Positions 5,883 to 30,723 of a stretch of 64,000 nt of DNA are shown here, in pieces. The stretch comes from Antedon mediterranea (taxonomy: Eukaryota; Echinodermata; Crinoidea; Comatulida; Antedonidae): assembly GCF_964355755.1 (NCBI RefSeq), contig NC_092675.1, positions 2,452,312 to 2,516,311 of the forward strand, in the 5' to 3' direction. Below the pieces are notes generated by a model. The model searched no databases. It was given only the letters and a program-made list of their open reading frames with translations, and had not been told where the DNA came from. The position numbers and the translations under genes were made by a program. How positions within the stretch are numbered: position 1 is the stretch's first letter; each line of letters opens with the position of its first letter.

Positions 5883-8800
5883 TCACCATTTGATTTCTTT
5901 ATCTTTTGTGATTTCTTGTACAAAAGCCGAGAATCGTCTAAGGAATTTTGGATACTCACGCTTATAGACAGTTCTAAGGACCGAGGCAGGAACCCATCCA
6001 CCAGGATTTGCTGCAAAGATAATATTATTATTTATACATGTTTTAAACTTTTTATGAAATGTTTGTATTTGTTGCTTGTGTATTTTACCTTTTTTGGTGT
6101 CGTACTGTCTGTATTTTACCTTTTTTGGTGTCGTACTGTCTGTATTTTACCTTTTTTGGTGTCGTACTGTCTGTATTTTACCTTTTTTGGTGTCGTACTG
6201 TCTGTATTTTACCTTTTTTGGTGTCGTACTGTCTGTATTTTAACCTTGTGATGAAGCGCTGTCTGTATTTTACCCATTTTGTACAAACAAGACAATTTTC
6301 AAGCAAGAGTGTTTGACAAAATAATAACACATCTGGGTGTATCCTTGCTATCTGATTGGTTAATTTCATATGGCATGTGGTATTCAGTATGTATGTTTAA
6401 AGATACTATTGCACTAAGAATTTTGTGCCATGCAAGATTGATGACTAAACAGCATACCAAACTGTGGTGTGTGCTCTTCTTTTTATACTGCGGCTAAAAT
6501 CTGAGAACTGCCTTTTTAAATGGCCTACAGTCTATAGTAGCCTTGTCATTGATTAACAATTGAAGCAGCGTCGATTAAGTAATATAAATAATGAATGTTT
6601 CCTTGAATGAATGAAGAGTTCTTCCCATAAAATACATTATTCTTTTACACTAATTGCAAATTGATAGCGTAGGCGGACCTCCTAGATGGTGAGAAGGAAA
6701 TATAACAACAACATTTTGTAGTATCATCAATATCATAAAAAATCTAATGTCAGATTAAAACTGAAAATAATGCAACCCTGGAGTAGAAGAAGCAAATTGG
6801 GACAGAAAGTAAACAAAGCAAATTAGGATGTTTGCCGCACCATACAATGTTGTTACAAAAAGTCCCTATGTAGTTGTAGTGTACTTTAATAATATAATAG
6901 TCAACTCTCCCAATACCCACCTTTGCTGGCCAAATGTCTTTCAGAAAAGTTTGGTATTAAGAATGTTTTTTGTATGGTGAAAACGAATTTGGGACCTTTT
7001 GGACCTCGAGAAAAGTCTAGTATTGGAAGAGTCGACTGTAGTAATAACAATGTAAAACTTACAATGAGCAACATAGATGATTTTGCATTTTAACTGATCC
7101 CTGGTCACAGTTGAAAGGTCATCAGTTGGAGGGTCTACGAATGTCTGACAGAGCATACTAACGTTGATTGTAGCTCGGATACATCGACTGTGAGCCTGTC
7201 CATAAAAGAAGAATAAGACATAGTTTATTATCTATTAATGGGTCACTATTTTTTTTATTAAGATGTCAATGATTTCCAATAGCAAATTTAATCACTGTTT
7301 TAAAGCTCTATCAAAATAATCAAACTAGCCCAAATATGGTAGTGATACACCAAAATATGGTAGTGATATGACATCATCATGTCCATATATGGGCACATCA
7401 CATTTTTTTGTCACATAAAGTTTGATAGTGTAGACAGAGCTTTATAGGTGATAATGAATTCATATGACAAACATACACACAATTCATTAGGAGTTAAGAT
7501 GCTTTGCATGAGAAAAAAAACGATGACAGACTTGATTTGAACCCGGGACCAATAGCTCAATATCTTATTTAGTCCAATTGCTCATATGCTTACCTCTGGA
7601 TGATCAATGGAATAATTAACAACAATGTATGATCCCTTTTCATCCGGTGATTGGCTGGTAAGATTAACTTTACGAATATGTGAAGCAAAACAGGTATCAC
7701 GTTGCGTTGCCGGCCAAACACGCCTCATAAATTGGTGCGAAATGACCGTATCGGGTGACAAAACCTCAAGCGTTTTACTTGAATCTAAAGTTGCTAAAAA
7801 AAGAATATATAGAATTAGTAGAATATTTAAAATGATGTGCAAGTATGATGTTATACAGTCAAGTAAATTAAACTTCGGCTGGGCTTATATGATTTTATTG
7901 GTAAAAAAGAATTTTCATACAGTAAAAAGTGTTCACAGTGCAGCAAAATGGGCGTTTTTTTTTTACACGCGTCATGGTATTCATAAGGCATGACGCACAT
8001 CGGACAAATGACGCACCAAGGGTTGTATGGTGAGTCATACAAGTGCATAAGAAGATTAGCTTTAGAATACTTACTGTCCCAATCCATTCTTACTCCAACA
8101 TCCCAGAAATAAAAACAGAGTTCATAAGCTGTAATATTGCGTACAGTATGGATGGCTTTGAGAGGGTCGCATACTACACCATCTTTCTCAACTTCGCATT
8201 TGTAAATCTAAAAAATGAAATTTGTAAACTTGACAGACAATACTGTTGTATAACCGGCAAATAACGTCACCAGATTTTAATGTTAAGCAAAATAATATTA
8301 AGCACTGTATAGGTAATTAGAATTACATGAGAGCAGAAACTAAACCAAGGAAATTCAAATTAAGCCCCCTCCAGCCCCACGGCAGTTAAGTTACAGTACA
8401 GAACCTACTATGACATAGGATCCCAGATGCTATTTTTGAATAGCAAAGTCTGTTATATGCACATGTGATTTATTAACATATCTAACCAAAAGGATAAAGA
8501 CAATAACAGAGTGAGTACGTGGCCAAGCAGTTAAGAACCATAATTACATAGCCATAACATTGACAACGGTTCAAGGCTCACTCGCTCCATGATTCTGGTG
8601 GTAGAACTAGTTTTCTTGGATAAGGACTATAAACCGTAGGTCCAGCGTACATATAGCTCATGCGCACTTTAAAGAACTTAGTACATCTTTTGAGACAAGT
8701 AGAGGGTTACCCCGGTGTACTGGTACATATACACAGCCACTGTCATACACAGCCACTGATCATAACTGGGCTCATTGTGCAATTGGGACTGAACTTTTTT

Positions 8801-11800
8801 TAGAGGTGTTTACCACCTCTTGGTCCCATACTTCACTAATGTTATGTATATTTCTTTGAATTTACATCTTAGTGAGAATAAGTAAACAAGGCCACAGTTT
8901 TCAATCTTTCAATATCACTTTGTATATTCCTTCTTTATTACTAAATAACTTTGTTTTTTCCTGTTTGGAGTTTCAAACTCCTTGAGTCATAGTGATTTTT
9001 GTGGCTTTTCTTTTTCATGACCTTTGTATCTGTTTGGAATTCAGATTTAAATTTCTTGAATAGTTTGAACAATTAAAAAATGATGCAATTTCAGAGGATT
9101 AAATATCTAATCATAATAGATAAATGAAACAACATAAATAAAGCAACTGTAATCATAGAGATTTAATCACACAATCTACTTAAGGTATTAAGCCAATTAA
9201 AATGCAAGAAATAGAGTATTTATAAGAGTGCATTGGTGTTTATTGAACCATAAAGTTATGAACTAATTCCAGCTTACCTTCATCTCTGGTTCAGAATGAA
9301 ACAAATCCCAAGTACTCTCGATATTTTCAAATGCATACTTCAAATTTTCTTCAACCTTTTCATTACACTGTAAACAACAAGTTTATTTTATGTACATTTT
9401 TGTCTGTATGCACTAAAGGTCAATTTACAGACGAACGGTAACAGTAAGTGGAAAACCGCATAGCTTTTCCCACAAAGAATCTGTATCTATCCTGAGCAGA
9501 AACCACCCGTCAGCTTCGCATTTTGTGTAAATGGTTATAAGAAATAACAGATTCTTTATTTTGAATAAAGTCACCGTTCGTCTATGTAAATTGGCCTTAA
9601 GTGATTAACACCAAATACATTATTTTTATGTTAGGTCATGTAAGCGCCCTCTTAATAGAGGTTGTTGTACTGTATATTCATTTAAAACTCAACTTAAGAC
9701 ATTCTTTTTCCAACAAGCTTTTCATTAATTTAACATTTCCTGCTTTTATTTTTGTGCAGTGCATTGAGAGCTTGCTTATATGCGCTATATAAGAACAGAC
9801 TATTATTGTTACTATATATTACATAAAGCACACGTCTCACCGTATCTAGAAGTCTGTGGGGATGTGGAGGACGGTCATCATGAATTGACATTGGTGGCAG
9901 TGATTCTTTTGAAGTTACCTGAAAATAAGTTCATATTTTTTTGTTCATTTTTAAAAGTATAATTTTTTCATTATTTCAGTAATATATAATTGTCTTTGCT
10001 GTCTACACTATCAAAAAGTGTGATGTACTCAAATATGGTAGTGATATCCCCAAATATGGTAGTGATATGTCATCTTCATGTCCATATATGGGCACATCTC
10101 TTTTTTTTTTATAGTGTAGACAGACATTTAGAAGCATTATTGAGACAAAAAATTAAACAATTGATGCAAGACAAATTTGTTTTCAATCCCTGTAAAAATA
10201 TTGTTTTGAAATTGTTTATGACAAACAACAGTACTATGATAAAACAATGACAATATGTTGTTGAACACAGTAAAATACACATGTACATATTTCTACTTTT
10301 AAGTCACATATAGTATTATAGTATATAGTATTTATGTTCATTTGACAGTGTGGAAATAATTTACCTTCTGGTCCTCTAATTGGTCATTCAAATCTAACGC
10401 TGATTCGATGGCATCAAAAAATTCCTCTTCTTTCAATTTGCTGTATGGGCCTTCCTGTAAATAAAAAACAAATTGTTCAACTTAGAATAACATGTCCCCC
10501 AAAAACATGAAAAATGAAGATTAATTAAATCAGATTTTGAATATGTTATTTTGTAGTTTTAATAGTTAATCACTTCCGTAGAAAAAAAAAAAATGTTTTC
10601 ACTTATAAAATGACAAAATAAATGGTTAAATTTCACCAAAAACCATTAACTGGCAGCCAATTTGACCATTTTTGGCTTTAAATTACAGTTTTTTCAGGTA
10701 AATACACTTTTTTTCAATTTAATTTTTAAAAAGTGGATAATTATTATATAACATTAAAATGGTATATTGAACAAAAAAATTATAAAAAAAAAAATTTTTT
10801 CAGGGGGACAATACATCTTTAATGCATTTTACATAAGGCCAAGCTGATTCATTTTGGTCTTGTTTGTTTATTTTCAAGTTATGTTCTTCCCGAGAGGGGA
10901 AAAGGCCTACCGGTTTACCAGGTAAGCAAGGCATGAAATAGATTACTGGATGTCCATAGAATTTCAAATTACTTACCTCAAAATCTGGTCCCCCTTTGAT
11001 GTTCATGCCTTTCATTTTTTCAAACATTTTCTTATACTCCTCAACGGCCCGTTTTCTTCGGTCTTGTTCCTAGATATTCACAAAACAATAGTTTTAACTC
11101 GAATATAATTTAAAATTAATCCTATTAATATTCTTCTGAAAACACACAATACAGTCAACTATATCAATACCAGACCCTCTGAAAACTGCAACTTTACTTT
11201 AGATCCTAAAGGTCCCAAATTAATTGTTACCATTATAAATGCATTCCAAATACCAGACTTTCCAGAACACTAGATATATTAGGCCAGCCCAAAGGCTGTT
11301 GGTATTGGGAGAGTTGACTGTATTTCGCTATTTTCATATCATATCTTCAATTACCTTTTCTAACCGTTTCTGCCACTGTTCTTCTCGTTGACGCATCAGA
11401 TCAATACAATGAGATAACGTTGCCAAGATACCGCCAGTTGTTGCCTTAAAAGTGAACGCTTCACCTCGGAAGTCTATTCCCATTGAGCTAGGCTTCTGGA
11501 ATTTATCTGGAAGAAAAAGAGAATGTTCTATGATTTATTCAAAGAACCTTGGTCCTTGTGGAGATAAAACTATATTTGTTATATGGTTTTAAAGTTAACA
11601 TTTATAGTAAAATGGAAAACGCGTCTTAGGGATGTAATTGTGCTGGGTGGCAGTGCGCAGCGACGCACATGTTTTTCCGAAGAACATCTTATAAATATGA
11701 ATACGCATCATGAAAAAATGGACACAGGTTTTCTGCAAGCTAGTTTTTGGCTGAATGGTATAGACTTGTGGAACTGGAGCCAGCAGTTTGAAACCCATCA

Positions 11801-14703
11801 ACCCATTATCCAGCCACAAAGGAACCTCTAGATATTGATTTCCGAATGCACCCTTATATTTTCTAGCTATACATCCCTACATGACAAAACTCACCTTTTG
11901 ATGGACCATTTGTGTGTTGGTGATCATTGACTGTAGTTTTGCTAACATTTTCATTGTCAATTAATTCGTCATCTTCAAGAATATCTTCATCCACTAATTT
12001 AAAGAAAATGTCAGAACATTAAAATATTGTAAAACATCTATAATAATATACTGTATAAATAAATAATTGTGTAATATAATAATCACCTTAATTATGAAAT
12101 TAAACTCAAAATAAGTAAATTCACAGAAGGCAAAAACTAAAACGATCACTTCCTTGGCAAGCTGTTTAAACTGAGTATGAAGAGAGAAAATAGGCAGAGC
12201 TATTAATTCCAAATGAGATATCAACCAATCTATGAGGGCCAGTATTAAATATCTTTATTTTTAACTCTCAACATTCTTGTTACTGTAACTCTAGTTTAAT
12301 TTTAATATTACTTGCAAATACCAAGTTTAATAGAGTGATGAACATATCACCATTAAAAAATATAGATTAAAAAGTGCTGGTATTATGTGCAGTATCTACA
12401 AATATTAACAAGACTGCTGAAGAAATTAAATATGACACCCATCATTGCGTTTAATTTCCGTCTATGCTAACCCTCTTATTGTAAGAAAATTACATTGCAT
12501 TTTATTATTGTTATGGCAGGATACTGCAGTCAGATGCTCACATCATTATGACACTTAAATAAAGAATAAAGAGCTAGCTTGTCTTGTCAAGTTAGTGAAA
12601 CAGTGTGGTGATGTGAGACTCCATTTTTGGACTTTTTTCTCTTGTCTTGGGTCAATTTGTTTAATGGTTTAATGGTTTTAAATTTATATAGGGCAAAATA
12701 CAAATAGTCTCTATTTGTTTGGTTTATTAGGCTTTTTCCTGGTTTATTTAAAAATAACACTTTCTTTCTTTTTACGCTTGTGTTAACCAGCGGATAAAGA
12801 CTATTTGTATTTTGCGCATTACAAATTTAAAACCATTAATCAGGTCTAAATTTTGACATCATTTAAGAGACAAAATGAAAAACAACTTGAACTTACGAGG
12901 GTCCTCCAACCACTTTTTGGACAAATCCTCAGGGATGTTAGCCGTCGCTGCTTCAGCACAATTATCAAAGTAACCTTGGAGGGTATCAACCTGACGACAC
13001 AAAATATCTCGGAATGTCTCCATCTCTGCCAGTTTCTCACGCAAATTCCTGCCTTTCTAAATGAGAGAAATTATCGAAAATATTGGTTTATTATTAATGT
13101 TGTAATGTTATTGTTTTAAATTTGTTATATTAAAAGTATTGAGATACAGCAATTTTTCAGTGATTTGCCTTTGGATATCAGTATATTTATGTTATATGCA
13201 TCATAGCTACTTTGTCTACCTTAAATGAAGACGTTGAGATTAGGCTTCCAGAGTTCAATGACATCATTGAACCATGACGATTTAGTTTGTCTTCTTTGCT
13301 TGCTTGAGCCTATAAAAAAAACACACAAAAAAACAACATTAAAATATGGTAAAGTCAAGTTGTCTACACAAAATGTACCAGCAGAAGTTGTTTGCCCGCA
13401 TGAATATTATTACATACAAGACATTTAGTACAGTTGTCTTTCATAAATACCTCTTTTTTGGGACTGGGGTTCAAGGTGGGGTGAGGTGTGTTAATCAGTA
13501 TTTTTGAAGGGTACCATGCTGTTTTCTTAATTTAATTATGTGAAATTTTAATATTTAGAAAGTGGAAGACAATTTAATTTCATTCATATACATTTATTCA
13601 GTTATAATAATAACTGGGGCACTAGAATCAAAACCTTGTCTCATGAGGGCCCCTACAATACATATACCAATATCAAATACTACAGTATACCAGAGAAGAG
13701 TGAAATTATTGTTCCCTGAGTATACAGTACTACACACTTTACCCACATGAATGAAATGCCATGGTATTAGGATTAATATTTTGTCATTATTTATGTGATC
13801 AGATAATATGATAATTAAAGCTATTATAGTATTAAGCTTGTTTTACCGACCCATTACCATCAAGCAAGTATTATTACATAATTAGTATATAATTAAAATG
13901 ATTAAATATAGCAAGATGTTATCAATCTACTGTATGTACCTTGTGTGCCTCTATTGCATCTAACCATTTCTGCCGTATGTCTACTGATTTAGCCTTGATA
14001 TACCAAATATTGTCATTTATTCCTATATCGAATCTACACTCATCAAACTCATGGGGCTGAAAAAAAGAAGCAACTTTTAACCAATCGAAATACTATACAA
14101 CATATTATTTAACGAAAATGCATTAGCGCCGCCTATTTTTGTTTTAGACTGAAAACCTTTTAAAATATTGTTTTTTACTGTACTCACTGTACTACTAGTA
14201 CTAGACCTCTCTCTAGTCCTATACATAATACTACTCTATTATTATTATTACTATGCCCAGGGAGGGGTAGGCCTACCTACTCCTCCTAGCTAGGCCTAGC
14301 CTATTATTATTATTAGGCCTATTAATAATTATTACTACTTTAAATAAATTTTTTTATTTATTAATTCGTCATTTTTATACTGATTGTTTTGAATTTGGAT
14401 GATTGAATGAATACATACCTCAACATCTGCACTAGCTAAGCTAATTGATCCTCTACAACCCACATTCATGCCATTCTGTGAACGATAGTAGCTAAGCGTA
14501 CCATCTCTCAAAACTACCCACCGATCCTGCCATCCGTGCAGGTAGTTAGTCCACTTGCTTAGGGTTTCTTCGAGCTCCGGTAGGCTATCCGACTCGCTGT
14601 CGAATTCGTCGTCATCTTCGTCGCTGTTAAGACTTATTTCATCGATGACCTTATTTTCCTGTTGGTACCTTGATTTGTCATGCATCTTTTGACAATTTTT
14701 CAA
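5883..14703 (-). CDS. CERT1: ceramide transfer protein (CERT/COL4A3BP), complete, 14 exons
   Basis: Non-vesicular carrier of ceramide from ER to trans-Golgi. Coding exons in transcript order: 14703-14419, 14056-13940, 13309-13220, 13056-12897, 11993-11895, 11506-11355, 11069-10977, 10454-10365, 9918-9841, 9367-9278, 8207-8075, 7793-7594, 7195-7063, 6010-5883. They join in phase to 615 codons plus TGA; human CERT isoforms are about 598-624 residues. An acidic leader precedes a PH domain at about 47-134 ([19 protein letters not shown]), which in CERT binds PI4P. Residues 135-164 hold a serine-rich motif ([12 protein letters not shown]), the site regulated by phosphorylation in mammals. A coiled coil with [20 protein letters not shown] follows. 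The FFAT motif EFFDAIE (343-349) binds VAP at the ER. A START domain (about 389-615) includes KRVWPA-type [10 protein letters not shown] and [12 protein letters not shown]. The start could also be Met7. It is divergent from POLK, with 291 bp between start codons. Confidence 0.95.
6082..6241. repeat. 31-bp tandem repeat in CERT intron 13
   Basis: Five near-perfect copies of a 31-bp unit containing TTTTTTGGTGTCGTACTGTC. Overlapping open frames on both strands are by-products of the repeat. Confidence 0.9.
6899..7039. mobile_element. MITE family B copy
   Basis: Terminal inverted repeats AGTCAACTCTCCCAATACC (left) and its complement near GTATTGGAAGAGTCGACTG (right). It is about 140 bp, in CERT intron 13 just downstream of exon 13. 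A related copy lies at 11151-11322. Confidence 0.65.
7301..7445. mobile_element. MITE family A copy
   Basis: Terminal inverted repeats resemble TAAAGCTCTGTCTACACTAT, with a core of AAATATGGTAGTGATATG repeats and CCATATATGGGCACATCACA. It lies in CERT intron 12. The left end is eroded and the right end is intact (GTGTAGACAGAGCTTTA). Confidence 0.8.
7495..7580 (-). mobile_element. tRNA-like SINE fragment
   Basis: The minus strand contains a B-box-like CCCGGGTTCAAATCAAG preceded by GAGCAATTGGAC, consistent with a SINE head. There is no complete tRNA fold. It abuts the donor side of CERT exon 12. Confidence 0.35.
8512..8870 (+). mobile_element. tRNA-derived SINE (Ser/Leu-like head), copy 1
   Basis: The head has GTGGCCAAGCAGTTAAGA (A-box region) and GGTTCAAGGCTCACTCGCTC (B-box region). 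The body has GTAGGTCCAGCGTACATATA and CACAGCCACTGATCATAACT. The same order of blocks is found at 44862-45172, and a broken copy at 21362-21640. It sits in CERT intron 10. Confidence 0.7.
9416..9600. mobile_element. MITE family C copy
   Basis: Terminal inverted repeats: AAGGTCAATTTACAGACGAA at the left and TATGTAAATTGGCCTTAA at the right. Internal sequence includes GGAAAACCGC and AACCACCCGTC. About 185 bp, in CERT intron 9. Sister copies at 19483-19782 and 30139-30318. Confidence 0.8.
9660..9815 (+). mobile_element. LINE 3' end fragment
   Basis: A translated frame gives [15 protein letters not shown], a typical LINE ORF2 C-terminus. It is followed by GCGCTATATAAGAACAGACT and an ATT-rich tail. 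It is 5'-truncated and in CERT intron 9. Confidence 0.5.
9998..10126. mobile_element. MITE family A copy
   Basis: Left end CTGTCTACACTATCAAAAAG, right end ATAGTGTAGACAGACA, core AAATATGGTAGTGATATG in two copies. It lies in CERT intron 8. Confidence 0.75.
10490..10822. mobile_element. MITE family D copy
   Basis: About 330 bp, with a right terminal repeat GGGGGACAATACATCTTTAA and a slightly shortened left repeat ATGTCCCCC. A closely matching copy lies at 50713-51029, with left end TTAAAGATGTATTGTCCCCC. It lies in CERT intron 7. Confidence 0.75.
11151..11322. mobile_element. MITE family B copy
   Basis: Ends ACAGTCAACTATATCAATAC and GGTATTGGGAGAGTTGACTG are near-complementary. About 170 bp, in CERT intron 6. 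Related to 6899-7039. Confidence 0.6.
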
Positions 14704-14994
14704 AATGTGTTATGTAAAGCGTTAAAGTTTTAACTCAAAATTTAAAAAACAAATTTATTAGTGGATGAACACTCCCTTCCAACACACTACAAAACACGAT
14801 TACGGTACACACACGCCACCACACGACGACGATTGGTCATGTGATGATTGCGTCATTTTTAGTTTGGATCGGCGCGCGCATATGAAAGGTACTTCCCCTT
14901 TTGCTGTGTTTACATTATAGATGTTTAACTAATCAAATTTATCTTAAAAATAATATGTTAGAATTCCAGATTTCCGTTATCAAAAATAATTTAA
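14704..14994. promoter_or_regulatory. shared head-to-head CERT1/POLK promoter
   Basis: 291 bp separate the CERT start (minus) from the POLK start (plus), so core promoters and 5' UTRs of both genes must lie within it unless further 5' exons exist. Visible elements are an inverted CCAAT box (ATTGG, 14832-14836), an E-box-like CATGTG (14839-14844), a CRE/ATF-like TGCGTCA (14849-14855) and a CpG-rich GGCGCGCGCA (14871-14880) in otherwise AT-rich DNA. No TATA box is obvious on either side. From the literature as I remember it, the mammalian POLK and COL4A3BP genes also share a bidirectional promoter. Confidence 0.75.
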
Positions 14995-17900
14995 ATGGCT
15001 AGTACATATAATACTACACTTCAAGATTCTGATTCTGAAAGTGAAGATTGGAAAAGCCCGCTGACACATTATTGCCATGCAGCAAGTTAGTAAAACATAA
15101 TTTGAATTTTTCCCGGGCCCAACCCAACCCAGGCCTAGCCTACACTGTGTTAGTATTAATATTATGGCTAGGCGTTAACAATACCTGATACATTATAAAC
15201 TACTGGACTGCTAGGCCTAGTCTTGACTGTGTAAGAAGCCAGGGTAACTTACTGATGATGTAATGGTTCAATACAAATAGGGTTTTAAAGCACTAATATC
15301 AGTGAATACTATTTATACTGTAGGCTACACTGTAGCGGCCTATCTATGATGTTGTGTTTCGACTAAAAAAACTATTATGTATTATCATGGAGTAAAACTC
15401 CATGGTATTATCAGCACAGTGAAAGTAGTTGTTTAATAAAGTTTTCTATAATAGGCATGGTTAATCGTGAGAGATAATCAATTCCACCTTACCTAAATTA
15501 TGGTGTGGCCAAGAGCAGGCAGTATGTTATGGTGCCACATACACCGTAACTTACATATACTGTACAGACCCCTTATAGGTATTTTCTTTTAAATAAAATC
15601 ACAGTGGTTCCATGTTTTCAGATGTTGCAGAGAATGTTGCTAAAAGATCACATATTCTTGGTAGTGGAGAGAATAAAGACGTAAGCAAGATTGATGTAGA
15701 GAACAGCAGAATAATGAACCAAGGTACTGGAACTGACAACAAAAATGAAATGGCTGTCATGTCAAGGATGGCCTTGAATACGAACAAAGCTGGAATGGAG
15801 GGATTAGATAAAGGCAGGATAAACCAGATCATTCTTGAAGCATCAAAGGGATCCAGGTATGTCAAAGTTGTCAAAGACCTCTGTGAAAAAGTGGCTGGTC
15901 GCTACGGCTCTGCGTGTGTGACAAGTAGCACTTTCCACAAACACAGAGAGTGAAATGGACTAGATAGAACTTTCTTCTTAGTGCACACTAATCTATACAC
16001 TAGATCTCCAGTTTTAAGTTCTCATCCTAGAAGACCACCACTACTATGAATGAGGAGATCTCATGTGCACTGATTTTACTTAATGTTATTCCCTGGTAAT
16101 AATTGCCTAAATAATAAATAAAAATGTATTTGTGTCCCCCAACCACCATGTCTGACATTTGTATATTTTTCACAATTATAGATTCTATGAAAATGAACAA
16201 AAGAAAGAATCAGAAACAGACCAGCGTGTGGCAACAATGAAACAACAACTGGATTTGATAACTGAGAAAGATAAACAAAAAGCAGTGCAAGTGGTAGGTA
16301 GACAGTCAGGGGCTGATCCAGGGGCTGATCCAGGGGTAAAGCTAGGTGTGCATGCTCCCTGGCTTGACAGTTAAAATGGAATTATAAACTACTTGTTGAC
16401 ATCTATTTTGACTATCAATATTATATGGGTTACCGCTCCTCTAAAAAAATCCTGGAATCCTCCCCTGACAGTATAAACACTTTCAGATTTTAAGTGAAAT
16501 GATATAGTTTATTTATTTGTTGTTTATTTTAAGAATTAATTTCACTATTTAATCTTCTGTATTTATGAAGGAAAGATTTGATCTGCATTTTTTTTTTAAA
16601 TCAGTATAAGAAATACATACCATTTGATAACATTAATTCATTTCATTTTTAGATGGATGCACTCGCACAACAACTAGAGGTTGCAAGAGATTTAAGTCGT
16701 ACTATAGTTCACCTAGATATGGATGCATTTTATGCAGCGGTTGAAATGAGAGACAATCCATCACTAAATAACAAACCAATGGCAGTTGGCAGCATGTCAA
16801 TGCTGGTAAAGCTCTGTCTACACTATCAAACTAGTTTGAAAAGTGTGATGTGCCCAAATATGGTAGTGATATGCCCAAATACGGTAGTGATATGATATCG
16901 GCACGTCACATTTTTTTGTCAGATAAAGTTTGATATTGTTTGATATTGTAGACTAAAGACTAGAATTAAGAATACTTTCAATGATTCAACCTACCTACTG
17001 TATCCTACCTACTGTATCCTACCTACTGTATCCTACCTACTGTATCCTACCTACTGTATCCTACCTACTGTATCCTACCTACTGTATCCTACCTACTGTA
17101 TCCTACCAAAGAATATATATCACAAGAATGAGTAATCCGCGATTTTCCCTGTAACAGTAATATTGTCCATGTGGTAGGGCGCCGCCATAAGTGTGGATGT
17201 ATCTGGGATGTATACAACTTTTTGAGACGGTTTCACTTATCAAAGGCTGGACCACCGGTAGTATTTTCATGATAAAAAAATGTTATCAACTACATGCCAA
17301 CATCATGTTAAATACTATTTGGATATTTAATTGTTCGCTTTATGCAATTTATTTAGTAAAAACTGCCGTATAAACAGTTTGCTTTATCAACCGGGCGCTA
17401 CAATAGCGTGACCGGGCGTGTTGGTGTTTACGCGTTTTCACGTAGGATAGTTTAATAATATTCCTATATTTAACTTGTTTCTGGTAAAACAAATAAATGT
17501 TAATGACATTTAACATTTTTTCCTATTAATAACATGTATTTTATACTGATTTATATCATAAAAACAATACTTAATTTACCGGGCGTAGAGTAGTACACGG
17601 GCAATGGTAAAGAATAGGCCGTGCTGAGTAACGATTCGTTGACTTTTGGTGTTGCTGTGTTAGGCCTTTTTTGTGAACTAACTTAGCATGTTAGTAAATA
17701 ATTGTCTGTAAAAGTGAATGTACACTAGTTTGTTAATAAATATGTATTATAAAATAGTTTACAATTGAAAAACTATTATCATAATTCTATTTAATGTGAC
17801 ATGTATAATATCTATTAAATCAAGTCTTATTTAATATGTATACATCCGCCCTTATGAGGGCGGGCATCACTCTCTGGAGCTCTCTGTTACAAATTTCTCA

Positions 17901-20900
17901 TGCAAAAATCGCGGAATACTCATTCTTGTGATATATATTCTTTGATCCTACCTACTGTATCCTACCTACTGTATCCTACCTACTGTATCCTACCTACTGT
18001 ATCCTACCTACTGTATCCTACCTACTGTATCCTACCTACTGTATCCTACCTACTGTATCCTACCTACTGTATCCTACCTACTGTATCCTACCTACTGTAT
18101 CCTACCTACTGTATCCTACCTACTGTATCCTACCTACTGTATCCTACCTACTGTATCCTACCTACTGTATCCTACCTACTGTATCCTCCACTGTGTACTA
18201 TATTTTTTAGGTTGTACGTAATCCAATATTCTTGTGTGCCCATAATGGAAACCCTTAAAAGGAAAATGGAATAATCCAGTCATAATACATAATGCAATCG
18301 TGTTTGTTTGTTTCTTTTTTTTCAGTGTACTTCTAACTATCTTGCCCGTAGATTTGGTGTGCGAGCTGCGATGCCTGGCTTTATTGCTAAAAAATTGTGC
18401 CCTGATCTAATTTTAATTCCAACAAATTTTGATAAATACAGAGAAGCAAGTAAACAAGTTCGTGAAATTTTGAAAGAATATGATCCCAACTTTTGTCCAA
18501 TGAGTTTGGACGAGGCCTACTTTGATCTAACCGAACATCTTGTTAAAAGAAAGTCATTAACTGATAAACAAAGGACGTTTTATAATCCATATCACTGTGC
18601 AAAAACAAAATGTGATATTAAAGATGAGGTAAAGGGGATGAATCATAGAGATGTAAATAGTAGCAAAGGTGTTGAAAGACTGGATGATGAAAGAAATGTT
18701 GAGGGAGAGGAAGACATATCCAAATGTGTGACATTTGGTTTTACTGATGAAGATGCAGTGAATGAGATTCGATTCAGAATCCAGGCTAAGACACAGCTGA
18801 CAGCCAGTGCAGGTGAATAAAGAGTCTTTCTCACCGGTTCCGGCATGGGTCAGGCGTCGAAAAGGATCAAATTGAATATATTTTGTTTTCATGCGGCTAT
18901 GTGAAAATGAAACATTGACATTGATTTGGCTGTGTTGGACTGAAACCGTGCCGGAACAGGTGTGAAAAACCCTTAAGAAGGCAAACAGTTTCAGACCTTT
19001 AGTGGTCTAAAACAGCTCTGATAGTAATTAGTGTTTTCCAGTGTACCATACTTCATTTTGGGAGTTGACAAACATAATTGCGATTTAAGAAAGTTTTTTT
19101 TGATCGAATTTGAACTATACCATTAACATTTGTACAGTATGGTCTAACAGTAGGTTATCTCAAATATTGGTTGTAACAACTTTTTCTTATGAACAGATTT
19201 TCACTGAATGTAAAATAATTATTTCTAGTATATCGCTTGGAATTTTAACTTGTATTTTACTCTTATTTTTCAAGGTATTGCTCCAAACACAATGCTGGCA
19301 AAGGTGTGTTCTGATAAAAATAAACCAAATGGACAATACAAGATTCAACCAACAAGAGAGGCAGTCATGGACTTTGTTAGAACATTACCAATAAGAAAAG
19401 TATGTACAATATTCTCTACAATAAACATAGTTAATTATTATACTTTTGCAGCTTAAACAGGTATTAGATGTAGATGAAGCCCTTAAGGCCAATTTACACA
19501 GATGCAGTAAGGATAAGCCGCGTAGCTTGTCCCACATAGAAACCACCCGTCTTTCCCTCGTTGTGTGTAAATGATCATAACAAAATAGATTCTATATTTT
19601 TTTAACAGTTACCGCTCGTCAGGGGTGGATCCAGTATTATAGATTAGGGGGGCTAAAAATTCATAAATGATAAAAACGATATGTCAGGTGGCAGAAAAAT
19701 AGTCATTAATTTATTTTAAAAAGTTAAATTTTAAAGGGTGCTAAAGCCTGTTTAATCAATGCCTGTCTGTGTAAATTGGCCATTTGACTGCACTGTATCA
19801 TCAACATAAGCTGAATTTGAACAAGAATACTGAAGTAACCCCTACTCTTCACCTGTGATGGGTTCTTATAAAGTGTACACTGGATCTCCATTTTGTGAAT
19901 TGTTTTATCCAAGAAGACTTGTTTCACCAGAACTATTGACGAGTAGAGTCTCAGGAACCAGTCATTGTGTTGCTACAGTATGGTGCCTCTGCTTTAACCA
20001 CTCGACCAATCAACTCTTCCATCCTATTAATCTTGTTCTGTTACTGTATGTACTAGGCCTATAAATACAGTATGTATATTAATATGATTATCATTACAAC
20101 TTATAGGTAGGTGGTATTGGAAAGGTTACAGAAAAGATGCTGAAATCATTGAACATTGAGACATGTAGTGATATGTTTGTCCACCGTGGAATTCTTCATC
20201 TTTTGTTCTCAGAGATATCATCACATCACTTTTTACAAACCTCGTTGGGATTGGGTTCGACTAGAGTTGAAAGGTGAATTCATTATACATTATTTTTAAT
20301 TTTTTTTAAGTTTAGCATAGCTTGATATTTTCTTCTAATCCTTTTTAGATTACGAAATTGAATTGAATTTAATGTATAAAGGAAAGAACTTTTTTTAAAC
20401 CTTTGTAAGTTTCTGATGTAAGAGAAAACTTTTCTCTAGTTCGATCGTAGGGATGTAGCTGATGAGATACAGTAGGCATATGCCATATCTCCCAGTAGTG
20501 CCTACAGTATCTCCTCTTTTTTTTTAATTGTAGATCCTCCGAAAGGAAAAGTATTAGTGTAGAAAGGACGTTCAGAGAATTGTCAACACCTTCTGACCTC
20601 TACTTAAAGTTGAATGAACTTTGTCAATCACTTTCTAAAGATTTAAAAGAAGAAGAAATTATGGTAAACATACAAATAATAATTGATAAATAATAATAAT
20701 AATATAACATATGTCTAATAGGCTATATTTAACATTTACTATGGGTATTTACTAATTAGATTTCCATCAGATGTAGTATAGATAGAGTATAATGCAACTG
20801 ACGTCACAATACCACATGCATTTTATGCTATACAAACAGATTTAATAACTTCTAGAGCCATATAGCCAGATTGGTTTTGGTATACTGCTAAAATAAAAAC

Positions 20901-23665
20901 TATAAATGAAATAGTTTAAAAATGCACACAACTTACACATTATGCTAAATTAATCTTCAGTCCAGGTTTATAAGCACAAATAAATTTAAAGTGTTATGAT
21001 TTAAGTTTTGAACAGTTAAATGGTTCGGGAAGGCATTGAACACAAATGTGACAGAGCTAGTAGACAAGCTGGAAACACATTGAGGTGGTAGCATGTTAAT
21101 ATACTTTCATATGCTGTTTCAAATCCTTCAAAGTTAATATTTATAGTTACTCCATTTTCTTCTACAGGGAAAAACAGTTAGCATTAAACTAAAAAATGAC
21201 AAGTTTCAAGTGAAAACAAGATCCAGTTCTGTGTCACATGCAATTGACTCCTTGGAAGCAATCTATGCCTCTGCTAGTGAACTGCTTAGACTTGAAATCA
21301 TTGCCTGTCACCCTGACCCTTTAAAATTGAGGTTAATGGGTAAGTATGAAATAGTGCAGACTTCTTGAGTGAGTGGTCAAGTGGAACCATAGTCCATAGC
21401 CATAGTATTGGCAAGGGTTCAAGGGTTCAGGACTCATCACTCTATTGGTTCTGTTATCAGATAAGGTCAAGTGCAGACTTCTTGAGTGAGTAGCCAAGTG
21501 GTTAAGACAGTGGAACCATAATCCAAAAAGTGTTGGCAAGGGTTCAAGACTCATTGCTCCCTTTGTTCTGTTCTTCTCGGATAAGGTCTACTGTATATAA
21601 AATGTGTGCACTTTAAAGAACCATTTCTTGTGATTGGTCAAATCACTTACGTTGCATTACGTCCTTGTGTTGCGTTGCTAGTGGGAATCAAGCTTTAGAG
21701 AAGAACCATGATGTGTAACATCTAAGCCCACAAAGCAATGATGTCATTCATTATCTTTTTAAAGATGTACAAAAGAACACAAGGCTTGCAATACAAGACA
21801 TTTGAAAATAAAACGCTTTCTTTTTGACACCCTTATTCAGGGTATACGTCTACTAAAAGAACACTTTCTCATGAAACAAAACAAGGGGAACTACTGTATA
21901 GGCTATGTTTTAGCATTAAGAGGAAACTTTGTTTGGTCCTGAAGGTGTGTTTACTGTACTGTCATGATTTTAGAATAAATTGTATGTTTTCTTTTCTCTT
22001 TCAAAGGTGTGAGAATGTCTTCACTGATTTCTGCCAATGTTGTTCATAGTAAACAAGGAACTCTAATGAATTTCTTTCAAAAGCCAAAAACAACCTCGTC
22101 AAAGTTAGTTAACGGACCTGAGATGCATGATCATAAAGAGACACTCAAAAGCAGTAACATTACCAATTCAAATGATATGAGTAATAATATGACTTTAAAT
22201 TACAATATGTCTAACATTGCTCAAGATAAAAACAGAACTATGTCAGAAGAAGTAACAGAATCACACGAAATTAATAACCATTTGTCAGACATTCCACACA
22301 CTCGGTATATGGACTCCATTCCGGAAGCAGCTACTATAGAGGGCAGGCTCTTCGAATTTGTTTGTCCCATTTGTAACAATGTTCAAATGCATAATGACTT
22401 GAATGAATTTAATAAGCATGTCGATCTGTGTTTGAATGATAAAGAGATAAAGTCAATATTATCAGAACAAGGTAGGATTTATTTATTGTTGTATTTTACA
22501 AAATCATATTTATTTGTGGATTTCAGTAAATACCTGAATAGGCAGGTGGGCTGCCCATTGTACTTGTAATAATTATATTATTAATTATTACACTATATAT
22601 ATACTTGCAATATTTTTATATAATAATAATATATATAATAATTTATATTCCCTACAGATCAGGAAGTGAATAAACAACCAATATCTCCAGTACAATCATC
22701 TAAACGGTAAGTTCTATAAACAATCTGGTATTAAAATAAAAATGAATAATATTAAAAAATAGAAAGTGTGAGATAAATAATCAACCCCACCAAGTTTGGA
22801 ACTTTTTATTTCCCTTCCATAAAGTCTAAATATAAAATTATTCATAAAGTCTAATATAAAATTATATAATTATTATAAATTTATATTAAATTTATGTTTA
22901 TTTGGTACATTTACCATACTCAAACGAAAATGTGTGTGCTCTATCACAGAGCATGGAAACTTTACAGATAGATATTACAGATATGCATTTTGGGCCATTG
23001 ATATAGATATGTCCTATTTATAAGCAAAAACATATTCTGTAAAAAGTGACATTTTTGTAAGAAAGTATACCCCAATAGGTGATAATTAGCCCAAATTAAC
23101 CACTCATGCTTTACTAAACATATAAACAAAAAGCACCCTTCCGGCACAAGTGGAGATTATCCCATGGTAGCGATAATGTATTCGAGTGGGGTGCTCTTAT
23201 GCCTGATTACCTAATGGTCAAACCTAATCAAATCATTTAATATGTATTTAATCAACAGTATAACTATTGATTTTAACAGTGTTTATATAGACACTGATGT
23301 TATTTACTGATATAGCTTCAACAACATTACTATGCATTGTGGGATACTGTATGAATATGACTGTTATTGATTTAAACGTCAGATGTTTGTTTAATATTTG
23401 ACATAGTGACTATTGGCTTGGCACTACTATTGATGCTACTATTAAGCCTATTAACTTATCCATTGTATTTGATTTTTATTTCCAATTCAATTTTTTGACC
23501 CAGAGAAGTTAGGATTAAGCGATTAATCTTTTCTATTTTTATTTATATTTCAGAAACTGTGGGTCAGAAACTTCATCAGCAAAGCGTAGAAAAAATGATG
23601 ATAAAGGAACAATTAAATATTTTTTTCAAAACAATAATTATGGAACTTTTCCGTCACACAAATAG
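14995..23665 (+). CDS. POLK: DNA polymerase kappa, complete, 12 exons
   Basis: Y-family translesion DNA polymerase. Exons: 14995-15085, 15622-15856, 16182-16293, 16653-16805, 18326-18812, 19275-19399, 20107-20273, 20534-20663, 21168-21339, 22007-22471, 22658-22706, 23554-23665. All phases agree, giving 765 codons plus TAG; human POLK is 870. The N-clasp is present ([20 protein letters not shown]). Catalytic palm motif [12 protein letters not shown] carries Asp168 and Asp170; the second, MSLDEAYF, has Asp259-Glu260. Thumb segment [20 protein letters not shown] and little-finger segment [10 protein letters not shown] follow. Residues 574-581 (QGTLMNFF) fit a PIP box for PCNA. Cys677, Cys680, His695 and Cys699 form a UBZ4 ubiquitin-binding zinc finger; human has two, here only one is seen. 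A second PIP-like motif GTIKYFF lies about 12 residues from the C-terminus. Exon 1 ([19 protein letters not shown]) is inferred from phase and its GTTAGT donor; the alternative start is Met at 15612. Confidence 0.93.
16806..16955. mobile_element. MITE family A copy on the POLK intron 4 donor
   Basis: The first intron bases read GTAAAGCTCTGTCTACACTA, so the family-A terminal repeat starts at the second base of the intron and supplies most of the 5' splice site. The core has two AAATATGGTAGTGATATG-type units. The right end is eroded (TTTGATATTGTAGAC). Confidence 0.8.
16989..17106. repeat. 14-bp minisatellite, left part
   Basis: Eight tandem copies of CCTACCTACTGTAT in POLK intron 4. Continuous in register with 17945-18187 before insertion of the element between them. 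Confidence 0.95.
17107..17944. mobile_element. 838-bp TIR element inserted in the minisatellite
   Basis: The ends are an almost perfect inverted repeat of about 40 bp, beginning CAAAGAATATATATCACAAG at the left, with its complement at the right. The flanks show a 7-bp direct duplication ATCCTAC (17100-17106 and 17945-17951). Removing the element and one copy restores the tandem array. The interior has several CCGGGCG motifs and no transposase frame, so this is a non-autonomous cut-and-paste element. A 7-bp duplication does not clearly fit the common superfamilies. Confidence 0.85.
17945..18187. repeat. 14-bp minisatellite, right part
   Basis: About 17 copies of the CCTACCTACTGTAT unit. Since 14 is not a multiple of 3, the long open frame across it has a 42-bp translation period and is not a gene. 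Confidence 0.95.
19483..19782. mobile_element. MITE family C copy with internal insertion
   Basis: Left end TTAAGGCCAATTTACACAGA and right end TCTGTGTAAATTGGCCA. It is longer than its sisters because about 115 bp, starting AGGGGTGGATCCAGTATTA, lies inside. POLK intron 6. Confidence 0.75.
21362..21640 (+). mobile_element. tRNA-derived SINE, broken double copy
   Basis: Two partial heads in tandem, each with an AGTGAGT...AAGTGG start and a GGCAAGGGTTCAAG B-box region. Then comes the body fragment CTCGGATAAGGTC and GTGCACTTTAAAGAACC. It is the same family as 8512-8870 and 44862-45172, in POLK intron 9. Confidence 0.55.
21622..21695. mobile_element. MITE family E fragment
   Basis: Contains TTGTGATTGGTCAAATCACT and the terminal block GCTAGTGGGAATCAAGCTT, seen also at 32352-32428 and 38152-38312. 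Only one end is present. Confidence 0.5.
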
Positions 23666-23944: not shown

Positions 23945-24014
23945 GTAAGCTCTGTCTACACTATTAAACTTGTTTGACAAAAAAAGTATGATGTGCCCAA
24001 ATATGGTAGTGGTT
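23945..24014. mobile_element. MITE family A left-end fragment
   Basis: TAAGCTCTGTCTACACTATT and one AAATATGGTAGTGG unit, then the element stops where the 185-bp satellite begins. Confidence 0.65.
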
Positions 24015-25400: not shown

Positions 25401-26110
25401 CATATGTTTAACCCATATATTATGTGCATGTGTAAGTAAGTAGTAAATATCTTTTTAACCTATGTATTTGAATATCCAAGTATATCACTTTTTAAAGTGG
25501 CAGTGATTCAGTGAATATAGAATTGATTTATTTGTGAGAACATCTCTGAATTATATTTTCAATCTTTTAATACATGTTTTATTAAATATACTCGACCTAG
25601 TGTAAGGGTGTTTTTATGAATGGCAACAGTAGATTCGAAACTAGATTGGTTTCATGATGATTTCGTTGCTCAATCACAATACTGGACCAAGATGACAATG
25701 GACTTCCAATGAAATGATTCGATTCTGTAATGTAAACAAGAATATTGAGTTATATTAATACTACATCTTTTAAAAACGTTTGGGAACTTCCACCGAGAAA
25801 CTAAAGACTAGGCACTCTGGACCCATGGCAGTCACTGTGCAGCGCCTACCACTATAAAGCACTGCGACGTTGGAGTTTATAAAGATGCACTAAAGTCCTT
25901 ATAGATTATCAGAGAATTGTTCAACCACCGGAACACAATGGTCGATATGGTTAAAATAGTGCGGCCTTGTGTTAGGTTGTGGAAATATTGGTAGGAGTAT
26001 GTCCAACACTTGATTTAAGTGATCTAAATACTAAAGATGATATGATGATACATATGATAATGCTGATCAAAGGGGCTATTAATACTTCATTTGTTTAATT
26101 AGTTCGTATT

Positions 26111-28377
26111 TTACATACTAAAGCATATTTCTTGTTCCAAGAGAGACAGAAGGTAATTATCGTTATCGAAACGTTTACTGCTTGGTGATTGCAATTTCGA
26201 TATGTCTTTTGCTGAGAATGTTGCAGGAACCATCTGTTTCACATAGTTGAACAAATCGATCTAAAAAATTAACATGTATATAATATTATCTATAAAAACA
26301 AAGTATATATTAACAATTGACAATACTATTTTATCAACGTCCATACGGTTATCGTGCTTTACACAATCATTTCTACAATAAACGTTGATCACGTGATAAC
26401 AATAAATGACTCGCACGAAAAGATGTCCAGAAGCGATTTTTTCGGTGCATAATTTCATATCACTTTATCGCATTTTATTTTAATTTTAAGCTAAGCTTAA
26501 CAAACTATTTAAGTACATAGACAGAACCAAAACTGTGCCAAGGAATCAGCTGAAACGTCCTAATGCCTCGCATGCGCACAATAGATTGCCATGACGTAAC
26601 TATGGAAAGATACCTATAATAATTTGTATAGACCGGGGATAATATTTAGCTCTAATCATAATTTGTCATGTGATTGATAAAATTCTTACCGCCGAGTCGT
26701 GCGTGAAAGCCAGGTAAATTTTCGTCAAATTGAGCATCTTCATTTGATCCACCAACACCCTGGCGACTAATTGTCGATCAAGACGAGCTAGTTTACAATG
26801 ATCCTTGGTACTATACGAGTCATTAGCTCTGCACCTAAAGAAACATATAATATACTATGAATAATATAACACATATGACAAATGTATCGGTTAAAATTAA
26901 TTTAAAACAAAGCAGAAAGTCATTGACAAAGAGTTTTCAAAAGCTGAAACTAATTATGAGAACTGTCGGCGTTTTCAAATAAGAAAACTCCAGTGACGTC
27001 ATTTATTAGAAATAAAACTTACCAAAAACTCTGATACTCGTCATTGAGTCTCCAGTGAACGGCAAGAAGTCCATCAGCATTCCATAACTGTTTAGATAAT
27101 AATTTCTGATGATCTTGTATCCAAACAGGTCTCCGTAAATGTTTAAATAGCTGGTTATGCAGATCACGCCTTCCACGGAATACGACGGAAGCATCTCCAT
27201 ACGGGTAGATATAACCTAAACATCTATCAAAAACATCCCTGCCAACAATCTTAATTACGGATAAGATATTTTCTAAAATGAATAAATTATCTCCAATAGG
27301 TGGTACAGTTACGTCACTGAACTTCCGTATGAACCACATGTACGTGTTTAGTTGGGCCGCAAAATCTTCTTTCCAGCGACCGGCCACGCCATTCACCATG
27401 GCTGTGACAACATGACCACAGTCGGCTACAAACTGGTGTTCGGTAGAAATCTTAATAAACTTACTAAGTTCCTCTAAATCTATCGTTTCATTCATGGTAT
27501 ATACTTTATTCACAGTTCCAGTTGGATGATCAAAGAATGGACTTGGAACAAGAGTTCGGTTTGTAAGATGGGCAAAAGCAATGGCTGCAGTTAAGGCTTG
27601 TAATTGATTATTCGGTCCTTGATTTCCAGCGAAAAAAGGATAAATATATCTAGGTTTTATTATATTAGTTTTCGATACTTCAATTTGTGGCGAATGCGAA
27701 CGTTGATTTATAGAAAATTTCGTTTGAGTGGATTGATTCTAAATTTAAAAAGAAAAGTAAGAAAGTATATATTTCTGTTAATATAAAAGCAGCTAATAGG
27801 AAAATAAATAAAACTAGCAGGTATACAATTTTCCAATAATGAATAAAAGGGAATTAAAAGGTGCCCCCAGCTGGAACGGCGCTGGTATCGTACGTGCGGT
27901 TTAAAAGGAGATAGAGGAACACATTTTGGCTTAGGGCTATTATATTATAAATAGTCATAAAATGAATAAAATAGTAACAAAATAGTCGTATTGTAAGTTT
28001 GCATACCACGTACCCACAGACCAGAGAAACAAAAGATTTTATGATAGTGGATAATAAATTTGGTTGATAATGCTCTCTGAAAGTATTGTCCCCATCTCCC
28101 CTTTAAAATGGGATGAAAGGTTTGAAGTTCATAAAAGTATAAATGCGAATTGCGGGTTGATTTTAAACTCAAATATTTCAAAAAAATAAATCAATAAGCA
28201 CACTACTAAAGGATTCCTATGCTTCATGTCACACTTGAACGGAAAACGGCGCCGTTTCGTTAAATAAATAAGAAACATCACTATAACACATATAGGCCTA
28301 ATGTTTAACTTTGTCAAGCGCCTTTGAACATTATTTTTATGGATACCGGCGCTATATAAGTCTGATTGATTGATTGA

Positions 28378-28449
<72 letters not shown>

Positions 28450-29388
28450 ATTGATTGATTGATTGATTGGTATACATAATTGAACGGTGCAGTCTTCCGT
28501 TCCGTGAAACGGAACAAGTGTGAATATATAGTTTAAAAGCTTTCTAGTCCACAAATATAGTTAAATATTGATATTAATATTGTAGTCACAGTTTAAAATA
28601 TAATATGCATGATAATATTATTTTTACTAGTAGGCATAATAATCTGTATCTTAATTAATTACCGGAAATGATTAAAAATTCTTTAATTTTAGACAGTTTT
28701 CAAATATTTTTAAATTCACTTAAATCACATGTTTTATATTGACTTTGTTGAATCGACTATTATGTATTTTACCCGTTTATTTTATATTGACACTGTTGAT
28801 TCGTCTATTTGTTTTTTAATATTTTTATATAGTTTATTTTATATAATTGTTGTTACTTTGGGAGAACGGAACCTGAACTCTTGTTATAGTGATTAGGTTC
28901 ACTTTTAGGTTCCTGCCTACTCCCTTAGTTTTTGTGTTTTGTTTTTTTGTAACTGGTTTTTGGCAATAAATAATAATAATAATAATAATAATAATTAATT
29001 TCATTAAAAACGCCTCAAAATGTTCTCAATGGAACATTCTTTTCCCGCGCGGTCTCAAGGTAGGGGATACTCGATCCCCAAATGCTCCAAATTTCGGATC
29101 ACATTGTTTGGCAAATGCTTAAAATTGCGAGAAACATCTAAAATACTGCACAGTAAGGGTCAAGCTTTAATAACCGTATTAAAAAAAAATTGAAACAATT
29201 ATAATTATTATTATAACGTAATTTCAATGATTAAAAGATATACTTACATAACAAATTTGTCTTATTTCGTTCTGCAGAATGTCCTCTTTGTCATTCTGAT
29301 AGATTAACCACTCAAAATATTGGTAATTTGTTGCAAAAACAAAAGCAAGTCCAAATCCAAGTAGAACAACTTTTTTTGTGAAACGCAT
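26111..29388 (-). CDS. O-fucosyltransferase-like type II membrane protein, paralogue 1
   Basis: Four exons: 29388-29248, 27738-27023, 26834-26690, 26260-26111, joining in phase to 383 codons plus TAA. Residues 1-5 are short and basic (MRFTK), followed by a hydrophobic segment at about 6-22. This fits a signal anchor for ER or Golgi with a lumenal C-terminal domain. Residues 85-99 (GNQGPNNQLQALTAA) and then HLTNRTLVPSPFF resemble the N-terminal nucleotide-sugar motif of the GDP-fucose O-fucosyltransferase family. AVHWRLNDEY (His275, Arg277) resembles the second conserved HxR-type motif, and KIYLAFTHDS the C-terminal segment before the last exon. Family placement is from these patterns; acceptor and sugar are not shown. 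It could be a divergent member of unknown activity. The reading frame is intact, and a near-identical tandem paralogue is at 33126-35543. Confidence 0.8.
28229..28523. mobile_element. foldback/TIR insertion with GATT microsatellite, only in unit 1
   Basis: Ends TCACACTTG and CAAGTGTGA are inverted. Subterminal parts contain their own palindromes (AACGGAAAACGGCGCCGTTT at the left; TTCCGTTCCGTGAAACGGAA at the right). Inside is a SINE-like end CCGGCGCTATATAAGTCTGA followed by about 110 bp of (TTGA)n with periodic slips. Unit 2 lacks all of this between matching flanks near 35095. Confidence 0.75.
28655..29000 (+). mobile_element. LINE 3' end, only in unit 1
   Basis: The start encodes FQIFLNSLKSHVLY and a stop, like a LINE C-terminus. 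Then comes a 3' UTR with GTGATTAGGTTCACTTTTAG and a (TAA)n tail. Absent from the matching place in unit 2 near 35150. A related 3' UTR lies at 62700-62890. Confidence 0.65.
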
Positions 29389-30138
29389 TGTTGCCTAGTA
29401 GGCTACTAAATGATTGCAATGCTTTGTATTTTGTATTTGTCAAAAAAACACCGAACGCGATAGGATTGTTAGAAGAATAGTGAACTTGTGAGCGGCGGCG
29501 TTAACACGACTTCGTTGATTTAACTTTTAACTGTCAAAACAACCATTGATCGTAATCCGCGTTGGTGTGTGTTTTTTTTAATAAGGTACGTCGTCAAAAA
29601 TACACTTACCATACGTTTGTAATTTTTAATTTATCAAATTGCGCTTGATGTAACATTTAAATTTTCAGATGATGATTTTAGTCAATAATGTAATATGTTT
29701 TCTAACTATGAAGTTACGGTACCGTAAAGCAAATGTAAGGTGTGTTGTCAATAATAAACTTACCATACGTTTTTAATTGTTTAAACTTAATTTTAATTGA
29801 TCAAATTGCGATTGTTTCAAAATTAGAATGTCCAGATGATGTTTTTCAAGTTACGGAACGGATCATTTAAACTTGCCATAAGTCTCTAGTTGTTTGTTGT
29901 TGAAACTGTGATTGATGTAAAATGAAATACGGATGAAGGATTTTGTTTGTCCTTGCCACGAGATCGTGTCTCTTTTAATGTATTAATCTTACTTTTTTCG
30001 TCATTTTCATCAATGTACAATGAAATACCTTGATAATGGTTTAGTTAATAATATAATATACTGTAGTGTGATCATTTGTTAATGAAAGTACGGTACTGAA
30101 CATGGTCAATGCCATGAGAACGAGTCTCTTATAATGTA

Positions 30139-30318
30139 TTAAGGTCAATTTACACACACGAGCGGTAACGGTAAGCGGAAAACCGCCCTTGTAGAATCTG
30201 TATATATCCTGTGCAGGAACCGCCCGTCCGCTCTGAATTGTGTGTAAATGGTCATAGGAATAACATAGATTCTATATTTTTATTACCGTTACCGCAAGTC
30301 TGTGTAAATTGGCCTTTA
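30139..30318. mobile_element. MITE family C copy
   Basis: Left end TTAAGGTCAATTTACACACA and right end CTGTGTAAATTGGCCTTTAA, with GAGCGGTAACGGTAAGCGG inside. A remnant of the same insertion survives in unit 2 at about 35905-36050, where both ends are damaged. Confidence 0.8.
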
Positions 30319-30723
30319 ATTTTCCTTTTTACGTCAGTGTGATCGATGTTAAATGAAGTAGTGGTTTACAAAGGTAACAACGACAATGTCAACGGGAATG
30401 CAGTGATAATGTTAAACTTTCTCACCAAGAAATATCCTAACAAACACCCATAATAACACAGAAACTGAAAGTTAAATCTCATACCTATTATTGGCTGTTC
30501 TAAGAAAATAATTGTTTAACAATTCAGAGAACTAAACAACAATGATATAAACATGTGGTACAAATGATATGAACATACTGTGCAAATACTATTAAAATAT
30601 AATAATAAACGTAGAAAAATAATCAATAATCAAAATATACCGTATAATTCTAAAATTATTATAGTTTTAAATGTTTCCTTTATTGCACGCCATTCCTGAG
30701 TATATTAGCATACATAAAGTTCG

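Follow-up and report, generated by a model that had tools for sequence, protein, structure and literature searches.

In the crinoid Antedon mediterranea, the orthologues of CERT (CERT1, also known as GPBP or COL4A3BP) and of POLK (DNA polymerase kappa) are adjacent and divergent, with less than 1 kb between their start codons (309 bp, or 926 bp in a conservative model). Since the human pair is also head-to-head and the host is an echinoderm, inheritance of the pair from the deuterostome ancestor is the simplest reading, and one that we hold with near certainty. The best explanation for the locus as a whole, and in our view a probable one, is an inherited divergent pair in which the gap of about 0.3 kb would act as a single two-way promoter. 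The main features of the window, by which we mean the whole 64,000-nt stretch of DNA analysed, are as follows.

5883..14685, minus strand: CERT/CERT1 (GPBP, COL4A3BP) orthologue, 14 coding exons, 609 aa
9841..9918, minus strand: CERT exon 9, 78 bp, phase 0-0, 26 residues
14419..14685, minus strand: CERT exon 1, start codon at 14685, context CAAAAGATGC
14686..14994, no strand assigned: interval between the start codons, proposed shared promoter, 309 bp
14832..14879, no strand assigned: 48-bp motif cluster, candidate core, with an inverted CCAAT, TCATGTGA, TTGCGTCA and GCGCGCGC
14995..15085, plus strand: predicted POLK exon 1, start codon at 14995, context ATTTAAATGG, the weakest part of the model
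14995..23665, plus strand: POLK (DNA polymerase kappa) orthologue, 12 coding exons, 765 aa

From the exon-by-exon models, it is clear that two complete genes diverge here, as the sequence-only reading had proposed. In both spliced models the introns are GT-AG with consistent phases, there are no internal stops, and the outer ends are exact, the stop codon of CERT ending at 5883 and that of POLK at 23665. The CERT model carries a PH domain, a serine-repeat region, an FFAT-like motif and a START domain, with Pfam values of 1e-11 for PH and 9e-28 for START. Its best two matches among solved structures are the human CERT START domain (245 bits) and the CERT PH domain (138 bits), with the PLEKHA3 PH domain next at 73 bits. 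The FFAT and serine-repeat motifs were spotted by eye in the model. Fourteen of the 17 matches to CERT in the genome search are its own exons, and the remainder lie elsewhere and are weak (E 6.5e-6 or weaker). The CERT start is firm, because the open frame reaches only 8 codons upstream of the ATG at 14685 before a stop is met. The last CERT intron contains a 31-bp unit in 6.6 tandem copies (6079-6281). In one scan of bacterial and archaeal genomes for stray eukaryotic contigs with CERT, there were 142 pattern matches, none of which was confirmed.

Skipping of a 78-bp exon in human separates GPBP/CERT-L from CERT, and exon 9 of the crinoid gene sits at about the place of this exon. The two are also equal in length, the human GPBP-specific skipped exon being entered at 78 bp in a table of PMC11642137. 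From the crinoid gene model, it may be that a skippable CERT exon predates the vertebrates.

The POLK model comprises an N-clasp, the catalytic core, an IMS_C domain, one UBZ-like C2HC finger and two PIP-like motifs. It is recognized by the Pfam profiles IMS (PF00817, 5.7e-46), IMS_C (PF11799, 3.5e-20) and IMS_HHH (PF11798, 2.7e-6), and the catalytic HLDMDAFY and MSLDEAY are both found. Among the best 60 of 69 matches, human POLK reaches 605 bits from model residue 76 on, N-clasp included, compared with 193 bits for bacterial Pol IV, 115 for REV1, 114 for iota and at most 88 for eta. Human POLK has two UBZ-type zinc fingers, whereas the crinoid protein has a single UBZ-like one (residues 675-706, exon 10, 22007-22471), which matches both human fingers. 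QGTLMNFF and KGTIKYFF look PIP-box-like by eye. In the genome search, 10 of the 11 matches to POLK are its own exons, and the remaining one is elsewhere and weak (E 6.5e-6 or weaker). Further IMS-domain matches are present on contigs C3, C10 and C11, and from their reading frames we take these loci to be REV1, POLH and POLI. A pseudogene, a retrocopy and an assembly duplicate were considered and rejected, the frames being intact, the introns numbering 11 and 13, and the genes being single-copy in the stretches of the genome that the search covered. Intron 4 of POLK holds an 838-bp element (17107-17944) with 40-nt terminal inverted repeats that are 98% complementary; arrays of a 14-bp unit lie on both of its flanks (8.4 and 17.4 perfect copies), as if the element had been inserted into a 14-bp satellite.

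The size of the interval depends on the first exon of POLK. Between the start codons of CERT (14685, minus) and POLK (14995, plus) we count 309 bp, which replaces the 291 bp proposed from the sequence alone; if POLK exon 1 is left out, the start moves to 15612 and the gap widens to 926 bp, still below 1 kb. Exon 1 joins exon 2 in phase. With a codon table trained on the other 11 POLK exons, exon 1 left out, it scores 0.28 per codon, as compared with 0.09-0.52 for those exons, and this score is reached by 1 of 342 open noncoding 90-mers (overlapping). Exon 2 has an acceptor of 8.2 bits, and 2.8% of 532 background AG sites do as well or better. The exon 1 donor, at 3.0 bits, is the lowest of 24, the other 23, on which the donor matrix was trained, scoring 6.3-12.2 bits; 15% of 585 background GT sites equal or beat it, and an alternative donor at 15041 scores 3.3 bits. 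Exon 1 is also without a counterpart in human POLK, the alignment starting at model residue 76. The weak donor and the missing human counterpart would both suit a POLK whose start codon is at 15612 (MFSDV...) and which has either a separate promoter inside the 926 bp or a noncoding first exon at some other place, in which case the 0.3-kb promoter would be partly an artefact of exon prediction. Such a start is nevertheless unlikely, given that exon 1 is in phase, that the other exons bracket its codon score, which is so seldom equalled in noncoding frames, and that the CpG peak described below is at 14.3-15.2 kb, away from 15.6 kb.

CpG is scarce across the window (median observed/expected ratio 0.55 in 400-bp windows), and the 309-bp gap has a ratio of 1.59 against a median of 0.54 for windows of 309 bp (top 4.8% of 619), with a G+C content of 0.327 that equals the window median. 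The gap falls within a CpG peak at 14281-15200 that is stronger than any other in the two-gene span (5.8-24 kb); its best 400-bp window, with 26 CpG, ranks in the top 0.9% of 3180. A separate POLK promoter would have to lie between 14.9 and 16.8 kb, and there the ratio is only 0.07-0.43; this low CpG favours a shared promoter in the gap. CpG peaks are not promoter-specific: the window has 15 merged CpG-rich peaks, of which 11 are outside the two-gene span and four within it, and three of these four, all but that of the gap, are inside CERT or POLK; one of the outside peaks, at 51.8-55.1 kb, is stronger, with 31 CpG. The calibration of promoter CpG is thin, with one placed start among the three other Y-family loci, that of the putative POLH, which lies in a CpG peak (ratio 1.1-1.4); the other two loci have CpG-richer stretches upstream. 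The overall pattern fits mosaic methylation, in which one interval common to both genes would be unmethylated.

Within the gap, the 48-bp cluster contains one motif that stands well above chance: GCGCGCGC matches GCGCRYGC, which was obtained in 0 of 1000 shuffles (a single palindromic stretch, counted on both strands; 15 motifs tried, uncorrected). TCATGTGA (TCAYGTGA) and TTGCGTCA (TKRCGTCA) have P values of 0.029 and 0.05, again uncorrected for the 15 motifs tried, and the inverted CCAAT is at chance level (P 0.57). Matches to the Sp1 (GGGCGG), TATAWAW and NF-kB (GGGRNWYYCC) consensus are absent from the 309 bp; as few were expected by chance (0.01, 0.62 and 0.00, respectively), their absence is weak evidence against the inherited-promoter explanation. 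A scan of the gap for sigma-70 promoters and terminators is uninformative in an animal, and no second copy of the gap is present within the window.

With these features in hand, we consider it likely that one shared promoter works in both directions in A. mediterranea. In this proposal, POLK and CERT would have been head-to-head before echinoderms and vertebrates diverged; the stretch of about 0.3 kb that separates the start codons would be one open, unmethylated, CpG-rich promoter from which two constitutive genes would be transcribed, one in each direction. The two-way activity, the openness, the lack of methylation, the constitutive expression and the age are what we infer here. A functional link between the polymerase and the ceramide carrier would be needless, since a housekeeping promoter common to both genes, and costly to disrupt, would be enough.

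The human promoter described by Granero et al. in FEBS J in 2005 is reportedly 140 bp long, and is said to contain Sp1, TATA-like and NF-kB-like elements. Human COL4A3BP (CERT1) and POLK are reported to be head-to-head on a common bidirectional promoter modulated by TNF/NF-kB (Granero 2005, from a table in PMC11642137), which bears out the earlier claim that the same pair is divergent in mammals. Both genes and their head-to-head orientation are therefore in common with A. mediterranea; in contrast to the TNF/NF-kB-modulated human promoter, the crinoid gap is without the Sp1, TATAWAW and NF-kB consensus. The two species differ further in the neighbours of the pair and in the extra coding first exon predicted for the crinoid POLK.

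The human 5q13.3 region is tabulated in PMC9601333 as GCNT4, ANKRD31, HMGCR, COL4A3BP, POLK, ANKDD1B and POC5. In the gene list of the zebrafish shutdown corner deletion (PMC9210284, Table 1), ifngr2(-), polk(+), ankdd1b(+) and poc5(-) form one block, and cert1a(+) comes 37 rows below polk, flanked by arsk(+) and hmgcra(-), with ankrd31(+) next. The rows of this table are probably in map order, since both blocks reproduce the human order. Judged on cert1a, the zebrafish pair thus appears to have been split between the two starts, so that, among these distant lineages and as far as the published tables go, the pair and its orientation are found in human and apparently broken in zebrafish. With polk and cert1a apparently apart, the pair can be broken and is not indispensable, and this apparent split is the clearest evidence against an unbreakable pair. 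The claim of the sequence-only reading that the pair is held by a shared bidirectional promoter stands in part. The human pair is indeed reported with a shared promoter; as a strict rule, the claim is weakened by the apparent zebrafish split and by the survey of PMC2871058, which describes short divergent intergenic regions as enriched in mammals and more weakly so in birds and frogs, with no enrichment in fishes or in animals other than vertebrates. The bilaterian age that the sequence-only reading proposed would go beyond the deuterostome ancestor, the depth to which the comparison with human reaches.

The host genome has one strong match to the bindin profile PF02084, on contig C1 (107 bits, E 2.3e-28, profile 98-163 of 238); bindin is, to our knowledge, a sperm protein restricted to echinoderms. 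A search of the genome for COX1, by contrast, gave no match. For two named genes to be neighbours and divergent by chance, the probability is 1.9-2.8e-5 (assuming 18,000-26,000 genes), and chance co-location was rejected on this value. The same value weighs on the possibility that the head-to-head arrangement arose separately in the A. mediterranea lineage and in the vertebrates, which the difference between the surrounding genes and those of human would suit. At about 2e-5 for the pair, only about 0.03 such coincidences are expected among the 1399 human protein-coding divergent pairs (PMC12672016), and independent convergence is accordingly very improbable.

To place the pair in its wider context, we have searched the genome (354 Mb, 18 contigs), in which the pair is on contig C6, for six families with members in human 5q13-14. 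Four families were sought first, and two were added after these four had pointed to C11, a contig with 6.3% of the genome; in human, TBCA, AP3B1, PDE8B and CRHBP lie in 5q13-14. TBCA, AP3B1, IQGAP, PDE8 and the most intron-rich HMGCR copy are all on C11 (five of the six families), CRHBP is on C2, and none of the six was matched on C6. The chance of finding five or six of six on C11 is 5.6e-6, or about 1e-4 after multiplication by 18 for the post hoc choice of contig. HMGCR gave at least 20 matched pieces on C3, C4, C5 and C11, of which the most intron-rich copy (6 pieces), on C11, is presumably the orthologue. On C3, C4 and C5 the matched pieces of each copy are longer and less numerous than on C11, which suggests retro- or tandem duplicates. 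The distance from HMGCR to AP3B1 on C11 is only about 43 kb. In zebrafish, iqgap2 is listed near polk (PMC9210284, Table 1).

The human neighbourhood thus largely corresponds to C11, and near the pair on C6 there are a TRPM gene (SLOG in TRPM 7.3e-20, TRPM2-like 8.1e-16) and a duplicated gene. Since the neighbours are on C11 and the pair is on C6, the pair has kept its arrangement although its neighbourhood changed, and from these map positions the two genes seem to have moved together, away from the neighbours known in human, in one of the two lineages. It has persisted through rearrangement, and selection is unproven by persistence alone.

The pair may also be ancestral with nothing special to hold it, each gene having an independent core promoter and breakpoints falling only rarely between starts that are so close. 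The gap is a tiny target of 309 bp, POLK and CERT are without an obvious common function, and the elements ascribed to the human promoter were not found in it. Separation is tolerated, to judge from the apparently broken zebrafish pair, and the survey data of PMC2871058, as reported there, were unable to demonstrate that metazoan evolution has preserved short divergent pairs. On the other side, the gap is spanned by a single CpG peak and has a single motif cluster, and the pair is together although five of the six neighbour families are on another contig, even if a single move of a block of at least 18 kb could be neutral too. Neutral retention is therefore a possibility to be taken seriously, without being the one that we favour. 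That selection keeps the pair beyond mere closeness also falls somewhat short of an even chance in our estimate. We offer only tentatively the fullest form of the idea, in which selection would have acted on a single bidirectional promoter joining the two genes from the deuterostome ancestor onwards, or from earlier still, and this promoter would have passed whole from one chromosome to another while all of its transcription-factor sites were replaced, so that the arrangement would be conserved and the sequence not.

Several other features of the window were recorded. A short repeat of about 130 bp, probably a MITE-like family, is present in copies that are 74-92% identical (matches of at least 50 bp):

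7301-7444, 9999-10130, 16807-16935, 23947-24011, 31342-31534: copies of the repeat, some within introns of CERT and of POLK, others outside
36912-37101, 43567-43701, 44272-44357, 60682-60783: further copies of the same repeat

The segments 25498-31986 and 32517-37554 are adjacent copies, with 90.6-97.2% identity over six aligned pieces, and both contain a minus-strand open frame of 239 aa (27022-27738 and 33926-34642). The first of these frames has no Pfam match and reads like a fucosyltransferase. A full-length 5S rRNA match (42058-42175, plus, 79.5 bits) lies between minus-strand open frames read as parts of the TRPM gene; among the TRPM pieces, only 46170-46475 and 56317-56613 have Pfam support, 43121-43393 being without it. 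ARAGORN found no tRNA in the window.

Taken together, the pair can be set beside several known classes of linked genes. Divergently paired genes make up more than 10% of human genes, 101 pairs being kept over 46 vertebrate species (PMC12672016), and POLK-CERT resembles them as a divergent pair less than 1 kb apart. It also resembles the divergent-pair class at large, in which a DNA-repair gene with a functionally unlike partner is usual according to PMC3815023, and PMC2871058 has conserved pairs more often divergent or co-directional than convergent. POLK-CERT, kept between human and A. mediterranea, is apparently split in zebrafish, so it probably does not belong to the pairs that all vertebrates retain. 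Among the matches listed from a largely open-access literature, there was no report of the pair in an invertebrate. As the HMGCR-CERT1-POLK-ANKDD1B region recurs in lipid GWAS (PMC13269230), inheritance from the deuterostome ancestor would place the origin of a gene pair from this human region before the chordate/echinoderm split. The 309-bp interval and the apparent zebrafish breakage also make the pair a compact test case for whether divergent pairs persist by shared promoters or by the rarity of breaks. The ancient metazoan microsyntenic pairs of Irimia 2012, as cited in PMC5429095, likewise consist of unrelated genes that have been adjacent over very long times. Those pairs are explained there by common cis-elements, or by enhancers of a regulator within the introns of a bystander, with enhancer-like signatures in sponge for 43 of 60 microsyntenic pairs, whereas for POLK-CERT a shared promoter would be the simpler reading.
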